DNA from: Fusobacterium perfoetens ATCC 29250
GTDB taxonomy: Bacteria > Fusobacteriota > Fusobacteriia > Fusobacteriales > Fusobacteriaceae
Direction of reading: 5' to 3'
Assembly (NCBI RefSeq): GCF_000622245.1
Contig: NZ_KK211416.1
Location: 292,296 to 356,295 of the forward strand
DNA: 64,000 nt
How positions within the stretch are numbered: position 1 is the first letter of the stretch; each line of letters begins with the position of its first letter. Below, piece by piece: positions 21,124 to 24,052 of the stretch. The notes beneath the pieces were generated by a model. That model ran no database searches, was not told the DNA's origin, and saw only the letters and a program-made list of their open reading frames with translations. The position numbers and the translations under genes are program-made.

Positions 21124-21834
21124 ATGGAAAATATAAAAAAATTTGCTGATATTATAAAAAATAGTAATTATATTGTTGCTTTTACAGGGGCTGGAGCCTC
21201 TACAGATTCTGGACTTGCTGATTTCAGAGGAAAAAATGGGCTTTATAATGACAGAAATTTTATGGGATATGAGCCTGAGGAAATTCTTAGCCATGATTTC
21301 TTTTTTGCTCACAGAGATATTTTTAATAGATACCTAAAGGAAAAACTTTCTATAGATGGAATAAAACCAAATTTTGGCCATAAAGCATTAGCTGAACTTG
21401 AAAAATTAGGAAAATTAAAAACTGTTATTACTCAAAATATTGATAATTTACACCAAGAAGCAGGAAGTAAAAATGTTTTAGAACTTCATGGAACTTTAAA
21501 AAAATGGTATTGTCTAAACTGTGGTAAAAAATCTAATGAGGATTTTAAATGTTCTTGTGGTGGCACTGTGAGACCTCAAGTAACTCTTTATGGTGAAATG
21601 CTTGATGAGGTTGTAACTGAAAATGCTATAAAAGAAATAAAAAAAGCTGATACTTTAATAATAATTGGAACAAGTTTAACTGTTTATCCAGCAGCATATT
21701 ATATAAATTATTTTAAAGGAAACAATCTTATAATAATCAATGAAACTCCTACTTCACAAGATGGAATGGCAAATGTAGTTATAAGAGAAAAATTTGCAGC
21801 AATTATGGAAAAAGTTATGAAAATTTTAAAATAA
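21124..21834 (+). CDS. Sirtuin, NAD-dependent protein deacylase
   Basis: Removes acyl groups from lysines using NAD+. The 236 residues show all sirtuin blocks: FTGAGASTDSGLADFRG (NAD site), TQNIDNLHQEAG, catalytic histidine in LELHGTLKKWYC, a zinc finger CLNCGKK...CSCGG, GEML, IIGTSLTVYPAA, and IINETPT. GAGGAGGAC precedes the ATG. It is a single gene; a promoter for the next transcript starts just after its stop. CobB-like deacetylase versus desuccinylase preference cannot be fixed. Confidence 0.93.
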   Translation: MENIKKFADIIKNSNYIVAFTGAGASTDSGLADFRGKNGLYNDRNFMGYEPEEILSHDFFFAHRDIFNRYLKEKLSIDGIKPNFGHKALAELEKLGKLKTVITQNIDNLHQEAGSKNVLELHGTLKKWYCLNCGKKSNEDFKCSCGGTVRPQVTLYGEMLDEVVTENAIKEIKKADTLIIIGTSLTVYPAAYYINYFKGNNLIIINETPTSQDGMANVVIREKFAAIMEKVMKILK

Positions 21835-21848
21835 TTCTAAAATTTTTA

Positions 21849-21877
21849 TTGACAATTTTAAAAAAATTTTATAAAAT
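21849..21877 (+). promoter_or_regulatory. Promoter of the structured leader and deaminase
   Basis: Consensus TTGACA at 21849-21854, a 17-base spacer, then TAAAAT. It places the RNA start near 21884, just before the structured leader. Confidence 0.7.
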
Positions 21878-21892
21878 ACTTTCATAAAATTT

Positions 21893-21975
21893 AATAAGCA
21901 ACAATGGCGCCCACAAGAGACTCATTAGGTAGATTTAATTGCTACTCATCTTGCTTGGGTGGAGTGTATAGTGAA
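21893..21975 (+). ncRNA. Structured 5' leader of unassigned class (riboswitch-like)
   Basis: Relatively GC-rich stretch between a consensus promoter and a strong terminator. A long hairpin is visible: CGCCCA with TGGGTG (one G-T pair), CAAGA with TCTTG offset by a two-base bulge, and an inner GTAG/CTAC. The order promoter, folded domain, terminator, AGGAGG and ATG is that of a transcription-attenuating leader. It does not match the purine, preQ1, ZTP, TPP, FMN, SAM, glycine or fluoride consensus sequences I know, nor the SRP RNA apical loop. It could instead be a free-standing small RNA. Confidence 0.6.
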
Positions 21976-21980
21976 TTATA

Positions 21981-22006
21981 AGGTAACCCAAGGGTTACCT
22001 TTTTTA
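21981..22006 (+). terminator. Terminator or attenuator before the deaminase gene
   Basis: Near-perfect stem AGGTAACCC/GGGTTACCT followed by a T6 run, 26 bases before the deaminase ATG and after the structured leader. Confidence 0.88.
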
Positions 22007-22032
22007 TTTATTTTATTTTTTAGGAGGACTTT

Positions 22033-22524
22033 ATGAAAACTTTAAATCATGTTAAATACATCAAAAGATGTATTGAAATAGCCAACGAATCTATGGCTAG
22101 CGGAAACCATCCTTTTGGAGCTTTAATTGTTGATAAGGAGGGAAATATAATAGTAGAATCTGGAAATATTGAAGTTACTGAAAAAGAAGCTACAGGACAT
22201 GCTGAAACTACTGCTGTTAGAAAAGCTGTAAAATTATATTCTAGAGAATTTTTATGGGATTGTACTTTATATTCTACTGCTGAACCTTGTTGTATGTGTA
22301 CTGGAGCAATTTATTGGGGAAATATTGGAAGAATAGTTTATGGAATAAGTGAAAAAAAATTATTAGAATTAACAGGTAGTGATGAAGATAATCCTACTTT
22401 TGATATGCCTTGTAGAGAAATTTTAGCAAAAGGACAAAAAAATATTGAAGTTATAGGACCAATAGCTGATGATGAATTAGCAAAAGAAATAGCAAAAGCT
22501 CACATTGGATATTGGAATAAATAA
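22033..22524 (+). CDS. Cytidine-deaminase-fold enzyme, probable guanine deaminase
   Basis: Zinc-dependent deaminase of the GuaD/TadA branch. The 163 residues show GNHPFGALIVD, the zinc/catalytic GHAETTAVR (His56, Glu58) and the PCCMC pair (Cys86, Cys89) followed by TGAIYWGNIGRIVYG. The length and the C-terminal extension ending HIGYWNK resemble B. subtilis-type guanine deaminase more than tRNA-adenosine deaminase TadA. Context supports purine use: a guanine riboswitch and a purine permease follow immediately. AGGAGGAC precedes the ATG. If correct it converts guanine to xanthine, which Xpt (40383) can salvage. Confidence 0.8.
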   Translation: MKTLNHVKYIKRCIEIANESMASGNHPFGALIVDKEGNIIVESGNIEVTEKEATGHAETTAVRKAVKLYSREFLWDCTLYSTAEPCCMCTGAIYWGNIGRIVYGISEKKLLELTGSDEDNPTFDMPCREILAKGQKNIEVIGPIADDELAKEIAKAHIGYWNK

Positions 22525-22534
22525 TTTTAAATTT

Positions 22535-22600
22535 CTCGTATAATTTTGATAATTCGGTTCAAAAGTTTCTACAGTTCTACCTAAATAGAACTACTACGAG
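22535..22600 (+). promoter_or_regulatory. Purine riboswitch aptamer, guanine class
   Basis: Classic three-helix aptamer. P1 is CTCGTA/TACGAG (22535-22540, 22595-22600). J1/2 is TATAAT-like, loop 2 has the ATNNGG pattern (AATTCGG), J2/3 is GTTTCTAC, and P3 is AGTTCT/AGAACT closing loop ACCTAAAT. The specificity base equivalent to position 74 is C (22594), which in this family means guanine/hypoxanthine rather than adenine. It begins 11 bases after the deaminase stop and controls the permease. No intrinsic terminator follows, so control may be translational. Confidence 0.92.
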
Positions 22601-22657
22601 TTGACTCAAAAAGTCCAATTCGAATTTAATAAAAAACATTAAAGGAGAAAAATTTTT

Positions 22658-23965
22658 ATGAATAATAAACTTATACAATTTTTAGATAAAAAATTTTTTA
22701 TTTCAGAAAGAGGAGGAAGTTTTAAAGGAGAATTTTTAGGAGGTTTAACTACTTTTCTAACAATATCATATATTATCTTCGTAAATCCTGCTGTCCTTTC
22801 TCTTACTGGTATGGATAAAGCTGCTTTAGTAACTGTTACATGTGTAGCTAGTGCTATTGGCTCTTTTCTTGGTGGAATCTTAGGAAATGTTCCTATTTCT
22901 CTTGCACCAGGTGTTGGACTTAATGCTTTTTTTACTTTCACTCTCGTAATGGGAAATGGTATTCCTTGGCAAGATGCTTTAGGAGTAGTATTTTTTTCTG
23001 GAGTTTTCTATTTAATTCTTGCCTTTGGTAGTATTAGAGAAAAGATTATAAATTCTATTCCTCAATCTTTAGCTACTGCTTCTACTGTTGGAATTGGTCT
23101 ATTTTTATCTTTGATTGGACTTAAAAGTATGGGAATAATTGTAGCTGACCCAACAACTCTTGTAAAAATAGCTCCTATCACTTTACCTGTTGGTCTTTCT
23201 TTAGGATGTTTATTTCTAATGTATATTTTAGATATGAAAAATATAAAAGGTGGCGTTTTATTAAGTATTATTATTACATCTATTGTTGGAATGTTTCTAG
23301 GAGAAGTTCCTATTCCTGAAAAATTGTTATCTTCTCCTCCAAGTATGAAACCTTTATTTTTTAAATTAAATATATTAGGTGTTCTAAAATTAAGTCTTTT
23401 AGGCTCTATTTTTTCTTTTATGTTTATAGATCTTTTTGATTCTTTAAGTGTTTTAATGTTTTCATATAAGGAAGTTCCCTTTAGAAATGAAGAAGAAAGA
23501 AAAAAAGGATTAGGAAGAATGCTTTATGCAGATTGTTCTTCTACAATAATTGGTGCTCTTTTAGGAACTAGTACTGTTACAACTTATGGAGAATCTATTG
23601 CAGGTATTAAAATGGGAGCAAAAACAGGTCTTGCTTCTATCTTTACAGGCCTTCTATTCTTATTAGCTCTATTTATCGCTCCAATTGTAGAAGCTATTCC
23701 TGTATTTGCTGTAGCTCCAGCTCTTGTTATTGTAGGAATATTTATGTTTAGAAATGTTTCACAATTAGATTTAAGCAATATGAAAGAAGCTATTCCTTCT
23801 TTTATGACTATAATATTTATGCCAATGACTCATAGTATTGCTATTGGACTTAGTATAGGATTTATTTCTTACATTATTATAAATGTAGCAGCTAGAGATT
23901 ATAAAAAAATCTCAATTACATTATGGTTAATTGGCATTTTATCTGTCATAAATTTACTAATATAA
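22658..23965 (+). CDS. NCS2-type hypoxanthine/guanine permease (COG2252, PbuG/AzgA-like)
   Basis: Proton-coupled purine-base importer. The 435 residues form a mostly hydrophobic protein with the AzgA/PbuG-type segments GGLTTFLTISYIIFVNPAVLS, ISLAPGVGLNAFFTFTLV and GTSTVTTYGESIAGI. The guanine riboswitch 58 bases upstream fixes the likely substrate as guanine/hypoxanthine. AAAGGAG precedes the ATG. It is the second gene of the deaminase-permease unit, which would import guanine and convert it to xanthine. Confidence 0.92.
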   Translation: MNNKLIQFLDKKFFISERGGSFKGEFLGGLTTFLTISYIIFVNPAVLSLTGMDKAALVTVTCVASAIGSFLGGILGNVPISLAPGVGLNAFFTFTLVMGNGIPWQDALGVVFFSGVFYLILAFGSIREKIINSIPQSLATASTVGIGLFLSLIGLKSMGIIVADPTTLVKIAPITLPVGLSLGCLFLMYILDMKNIKGGVLLSIIITSIVGMFLGEVPIPEKLLSSPPSMKPLFFKLNILGVLKLSLLGSIFSFMFIDLFDSLSVLMFSYKEVPFRNEEERKKGLGRMLYADCSSTIIGALLGTSTVTTYGESIAGIKMGAKTGLASIFTGLLFLLALFIAPIVEAIPVFAVAPALVIVGIFMFRNVSQLDLSNMKEAIPSFMTIIFMPMTHSIAIGLSIGFISYIIINVAARDYKKISITLWLIGILSVINLLI

Positions 23966-24013
23966 TAAATCATAATATTTATTATAAATTTAATTTTCTT
24001 TATAGTTATAATA

Positions 24014-24050
24014 AAAAAACTACACTTAACAAAGTTAAATGTAGTTTTTT
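24014..24050. terminator. Bidirectional terminator
   Basis: AAAAAACTACA/TGTAGTTTTTT arms around an inner TAAC/GTTA between the purine permease (+) and PBP1A (-). Confidence 0.88.
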
Positions 24051-24052
24051 TA

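Follow-up and report, generated by a model that had tools for sequence, protein, structure and literature searches.

A conserved leader RNA, and candidate riboswitch, ahead of a guanine-deaminase-like gene in Fusobacterium perfoetens

A 64,000-nucleotide stretch of the Fusobacterium perfoetens ATCC 29250 genome (contig NZ_KK211416.1, positions 292,296 to 356,295), henceforth referred to as the window, contains a short operon that follows a Sir2-type deacylase gene. Its elements lie in the order promoter, leader, terminator, deaminase gene, purine riboswitch and permease gene, as detailed in Table 1. The near-consensus promoter was ranked first in the region by consensus scan, and transcription is expected to start near position 21884. 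The hairpin at 21980-22001 was the sole terminator-like site found in the region. The initial annotation had proposed this promoter and terminator together with a guanine-deaminase-like gene and a purine permease; the two signals were recovered by the scans and the two genes by Pfam and structural relatives, and all details of that annotation that could be checked proved correct. A further hairpin with an A-run and a T-run (ACTACACTTAAC...GTTAAATGTAGT) was observed at 24013-24051, between the permease gene and a convergent penicillin-binding protein gene, and looks like a shared bidirectional terminator.

Table 1 Features of the deaminase-permease locus, in positions of the window.
Feature	Position	Strand	Details
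Sir2-type deacylase gene (end)	21124-21834		precedes promoter
Sigma-70-type promoter	21849-21877	+	TTGACA-17-TAAAAT; consensus scan, 11/12 matches
Candidate aptamer core	21906-21961	+	GG, P1, P2, P3 and internal loop
P1	21908-21912/21957-21961, plus 21913-21956 in the window genome		CGCCC(A)/(T)GGGTG
P2	21914-21918/21949-21953		CAAGA/TCTTG
Internal loop between P2 and P3	21919-21927/21947-21948		GACTCATTA/CA
P3	21928-21932/21942-21946		GGTAG/CTACT; absent from the initial annotation
5' strand of predicted antiterminator	21954-21960	+	CTTGGGT; P1 3' strand and preceding linker
Intrinsic terminator	21980-22007	+	9-pair hairpin 21980-21988/21993-22001, U-rich tail
3' strand of predicted antiterminator	21986-21992	+	ACCCAAG; top of terminator 5' arm and loop
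Guanine-deaminase-like enzyme, cytidine-deaminase fold	22033-22524	+	163 aa; PF00383; 1wkq/1tiy
Guanine-class purine riboswitch	22516-22616	+	RF00167, 71 bits (cut-off 37)
Hairpin absorbing 3' strand of purine-riboswitch P1	22597-22622	+	RNAfold
AzgA-type purine permease (NCS2 superfamily)	22658-23965	+	435 aa; PF00860

The closest solved relatives of the deaminase are the guanine deaminases 1wkq/1tiy (E = 1.8e-22). Its zinc motif, H56-A-E58 with P85-C86-x-M-C89, has the HAE and PCxxC form of GuaD-type enzymes and is invariant across 25 homologues. The match to 1wkq/1tiy stops at residue 112 and profile scores for chains named CMP or dCMP deaminase are nearly equal to those for guanine deaminases, so that guanine is assigned as substrate mainly from context. 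The permease matched the plant adenine/guanine permeases AZG1 and AZG2 at 2.9e-58 and 4e-44, respectively.

The purine aptamer before the permease gene, which the initial annotation had placed in the guanine class from a C at 22594, was identified as such by a match spanning the full RF00167 model (1-102). The nucleotides that specify the guanine class are kept, with C 22594 in ACTAC as the equivalent of C74, together with U51, GTTTCTAC, and by this textbook signature the element would respond to guanine. No terminator was seen downstream of the aptamer in a scan of this region of the window. The predicted hairpin that absorbs the 3' strand of its P1 is probably part of an expression platform acting on translation. 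In the homologous element of genome G035, the P1 3' strand, read by eye, could either close P1 or bind a GCCC that otherwise masks the GGGGG ribosome-binding site, an arrangement that looks like a translational OFF switch. Purine riboswitches were also observed a few kb before xanthine dehydrogenase-type genes (L181 4808-4907, L182 2502-2599; G035:C20, G005:C2, G010:C1, G012:C27), and those of L181 and L182 precede a permease and three dehydrogenase subunits. None was found at the window genome's own xanthine dehydrogenase-type operon (L180). Some genera of the family have 10-15 copies per genome, whereas other genera have only 2-3, as compared for G005, G010, G012 and G057 versus G000, G035 and G030.

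The leader is predicted to fold into a rod of three helices, P1, P2 and P3. The pairings CGCCCA/TGGGTG and CAAGA/TCTTG proposed in the initial annotation correspond to P1 with its additional window pair (21908-21913/21956-21961) and to P2. Homologous leaders were found in seven genomes, representing six distinct sequences of which five are clearly different. P1 varies between CGCCC/GGGTG in the window and CGATT/AGTCG in G057, P2 between CAAGA/TCTTG and TAGAA/TTCTA, and P3 among GGTAG/CTACT, GGCAG/CTGCT, GGTTG/CAGCT and GGTGA/TCACT. In a hand alignment of the six sequences, all 15 pairs of the three helices are canonical throughout (all 90 cells) and 8 of the 15 show compensatory changes on both sides, a covariation that is contributed in large part by one divergent sequence, that of G057. 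P1 was counted on the hand alignment because MAFFT was unable to place the G057 insertion. For P2 and P3, machine alignment gave 100% paired cells with 6 doubly changed pairs, and neither any of 500 shuffles nor any slid register equalled this covariation score. Covarying stems, whose absence from homologues the initial annotation had named as grounds for rejection, are therefore present. Nearly invariant positions comprise the foot GGCG, the loop strand RACTCNNTA with the CA opposite it, the GG opening P3 and the returning CTCAT, while P1 and P2 are spaced by one base on one side and three variable bases on the other. Against shuffled sequences, single-sequence folding energy gave z = -0.44 for the aptamer part and z = -2.2 with the terminator. 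Since the aptamer part folds no better than its shuffles, the case for the leader rests on comparison, which supports a conserved, covarying RNA structure with a terminator. A candidate pseudoknot, ACTC/GAGT, was dropped because it is not conserved.

No Rfam 15 family matched the leader in the window at the gathering score, in agreement with the initial annotation, which had assigned it to no known riboswitch class and had set a match to a known non-riboswitch RNA as a refutation. At a relaxed threshold (E up to 10) only inconsistent, chance-level matches were obtained, several on the wrong strand. Among the homologous leaders, none came near a cut-off at five loci and none was matched in nine larger loci. 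In exactly 7 genomes among 98 from Fusobacteriota, a covariance model placed a single copy of the leader directly before the orthologous deaminase gene. This association is partly by construction, since these leaders themselves were used to build the model; only the lack of matches elsewhere counts as independent. The seven true leaders scored 70-94 bits and nothing else in the 98 genomes exceeded 21 bits. The carriers are the window genome, one congener, a single representative of each of two other genera of the family and three members of a Cetobacterium-like genus; L021, titled Cetobacterium, has this leader as well. Elsewhere in 61 genomes of the family, the pattern ACTCNNTAGG..CTCAT always lacked the flanking stems in the loci examined.

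Beyond Fusobacteriota, no credible match was obtained from 35 deaminase-encoding genomes, 398 genomes of the Clostridium phylum, 296 from the phylum to which a Spirochaetales locus belongs and 225 of the Clostridium order, a partial sample searched with strict filters in which two genome samples largely overlap. The hits there scored only 22-32 bits, and those that were read lay inside coding regions (tgt, peptide synthetase, repeat protein) or lacked the core; noise thus extends to about 32 bits, and true members begin at 70. Viral contigs and plasmids gave no real match. Three genomes with a close deaminase have no leader. Two of these have the deaminase gene inside an operon that also encodes a Bmp-type lipoprotein, components of an ABC transporter and xanthine dehydrogenase; the third has a palindrome upstream of the gene and a xanthine permease downstream. 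A palindrome, GTAATACGTATTACC or GGTAATACCTATTACC, was also observed between promoter and deaminase start codon at leaderless Clostridium-type loci (L010, L023, L024, L025, L027, L039), and a GntR/UTRA regulator gene lies nearby in L154, the same locus as L010. This palindrome is likely a protein operator that replaces the RNA.

Both RNA elements predicted by the initial annotation for one operon, the leader and the guanine riboswitch, occur together in 5 of the 7 leader-bearing genomes (the window genome, G035, G005, G010 and G012), with RF00167 between the deaminase and permease genes. In G030, the gap between the two genes is 18 bases and holds no purine riboswitch; G057 has no permease at the locus.

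The 3' strand of P1 is complementary to the arm and loop of the terminator, and P1 and the predicted antiterminator would therefore compete for one strand. Among species, the linker that precedes this strand reads CTT, CAA, CAT or CTA, or is an extended A+T stretch, and the terminator loop changes in step with it. When duplex energies were calculated for each P1 3' strand against all terminators, its own terminator was the best partner in every row (-11.7, -8.6, -11.5, -9.5 and -9.3 kcal/mol), and when the five different sequences were permuted, the true matching ranked first among all 120 arrangements. The antiterminator thus covaries. The leader displays the general anatomy of a riboswitch, in which a conserved aptamer structure overlaps the expression platform. 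Sequence comparison thus shows three things: the helices, the competing antiterminator pairing and the association with the deaminase gene.

Folding before the 3' arm of the terminator is made placed the two states of the window leader within 0.5 kcal/mol of each other and favoured the antiterminator in G057, with P1 favoured by about 2-7 kcal/mol in other species. Once the terminator is complete, the terminated state is favoured in every case. Since P1 and the terminator are favoured at equilibrium in nearly all species, an antiterminated state must be kinetic or otherwise stabilised. P2, P3 and the internal loop are intact in both states, and the loop need not gate P1.

Taken together, the leader fairly probably acts as the sensor in a previously undescribed class of transcription-attenuating riboswitch, presumably binding a small molecule. 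The stacked helices P1-P2-P3 would form the aptamer, and the likely binding site is the P2/P3 internal loop, RACTCNNTA opposite CA, with the invariant foot GGCG. Bound ligand would keep P1 closed, so that the P1 3' strand could not reach the terminator, the terminator would form and the operon would be off. Without ligand, this strand would pair with the terminator 5' arm and loop, and deaminase and permease would be transcribed; the downstream guanine riboswitch would set permease output separately. An OFF switch is the simplest reading of the direction because P1 is conserved.

Control by a regulatory protein that binds the leader and chooses between antiterminator and terminator appears unlikely. 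PyrR and BglG-type proteins decide between these structures at leaders, and the anatomy of such a leader would be the same; the terminated default at equilibrium would also be in keeping with antiterminator stabilisation by a protein. The loci read contain no regulator gene beside the leader, although one elsewhere would be compatible with this explanation. Against it, the most conserved nucleotides lie in an asymmetric internal loop of a closed rod, as is typical of small-molecule aptamers, and the leader is present in a single copy per genome whereas protein-bound leaders often occur at several operons.

An ON switch, or a guanine sensor, in which guanine or another substrate-side purine would favour readthrough and induce the deaminase, is less probable again. 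For a catabolic enzyme, induction by its substrate is the simplest logic, and the P2/P3 core is also compatible with the antiterminated state, but a conserved, covarying P1 foot that excludes the antiterminator is the usual OFF layout, and the operon already contains a guanine sensor (RF00167). Attenuation by a translated leader peptide, with ribosome position on a frame from ATG 21904-21906 (MAPTRDSLG...) setting the terminator, is very unlikely on the sequences: ATGGCGCCCACAAGAGACTCATTAGG keeps the frame MAPTRDSLG open in 6 of 7 genomes and the frame runs into the deaminase in Cetobacterium-like genomes, but G057 has ACG and no start codon, the G030 frame ends after 10 codons, no Shine-Dalgarno sequence lies ahead of the ATG, the helix pairs covary, and the loop length varies by 1-2 bases, which puts the equally conserved 3' half in different frames. 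In the Cetobacterium-like loci L149 (7894-8505), L150 and L151, the reading frame opened by the leader ATG continues into the deaminase with no stop between, and gene callers may consequently annotate a 203-aa deaminase starting inside the RNA in these genomes.

For the OFF switch favoured here, xanthine, the product of the deaminase, is the first guess for the ligand, by analogy. A predicted antiterminator that implies an OFF switch would point to a product or pool signal such as xanthine rather than to the substrate guanine, and a purine context is suggested by the adjoining AzgA permease and by the two leaderless genomes with the deaminase beside xanthine dehydrogenase. Xanthine-I riboswitches are OFF switches guarding genes that produce oxidised purines, guanine-deaminase-like genes included (PMC7373994), and may serve as a precedent in logic, not in homology. 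The idea that leader carriers lack xanthine dehydrogenase, with xanthine piling up, proved wrong, as a PF02738 gene was present in 10 of 10 genomes tested. A xanthine-dehydrogenase-type gene is present in all seven leader-bearing genomes, so that xanthine is an intermediate and not clearly a dead end; the xanthine guess is weakened by this but not removed. In our judgement, the prospect that the ligand is xanthine or another downstream purine falls a little short of even. Something else, or a protein, in place of a purine ligand is rather doubtful; guanine is improbable, as is, to the same degree, another purine or a phosphoribosyl signal. The fuller proposal, a Fusobacteriota riboswitch class that senses xanthine or another oxidised purine, is unrelated to xanthine-I and xanthine-II and stands in series with a guanine riboswitch, is put forward tentatively.

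Xanthine-I (the NMT1 motif) resembles the leader in being a small, rod-shaped aptamer with conserved internal-loop nucleotides, and is an OFF switch, as proposed here for the leader, that is sometimes found before guanine deaminase-like genes (PMC7373994, PMC8266621). Its core is a J1 between P1 and P2a, G7-A-A-G-C-G12 opposite A39-U40, with the bulge C33-C34-G35 (PMC8266621). The leader differs in carrying its conserved loop between P2 and P3 and not at a large J1 between P1 and P2a; neither GAAGCG/AU at that position nor the CCG bulge was found in it. Reported occurrences of NMT1 are limited to Proteobacteria, and the motif controls translation, with almost no terminators. The purine riboswitch RF00167 and its variants (guanine-I, guanine-II, xanthine-II and 2'-dG) likewise regulate purine genes; this class, however, is built on a three-way junction, which the leader, a single P1-P2-P3 rod with no RF00167 match, does not contain. 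Tandem PRPP-guanine riboswitch pairs reportedly place two RNA sensors on one purine operon, with the aptamers adjoining before one gene. The present operon also carries two RNA sensors, but here the leader precedes the deaminase and the guanine riboswitch precedes the permease, about 550 bases apart.

Searches of the open-access literature on riboswitches of guanine deaminase genes and on orphan RNAs of Fusobacteria yielded no description of the leader, which within that scope is no proof of absence. The main text of two large comparative surveys of bacterial genomes, Fusobacteria included, describes no deaminase-associated motif. The leader is a credible and rare riboswitch candidate, probably undescribed, with a hypothetical ligand and direction.

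If this is true, the leader would represent a riboswitch class that is rare, found in just a handful of genomes, and built on a compact aptamer of <60 bases, and the locus would be a natural two-sensor operon in which purine breakdown and uptake read different signals. Should xanthine be sensed, a single operon would monitor the substrate of its enzyme as well as the product. A confirmed leader would be an alternative answer to a regulatory task for which Proteobacteria use xanthine-I and clostridial relatives of the operon may use a protein operator.
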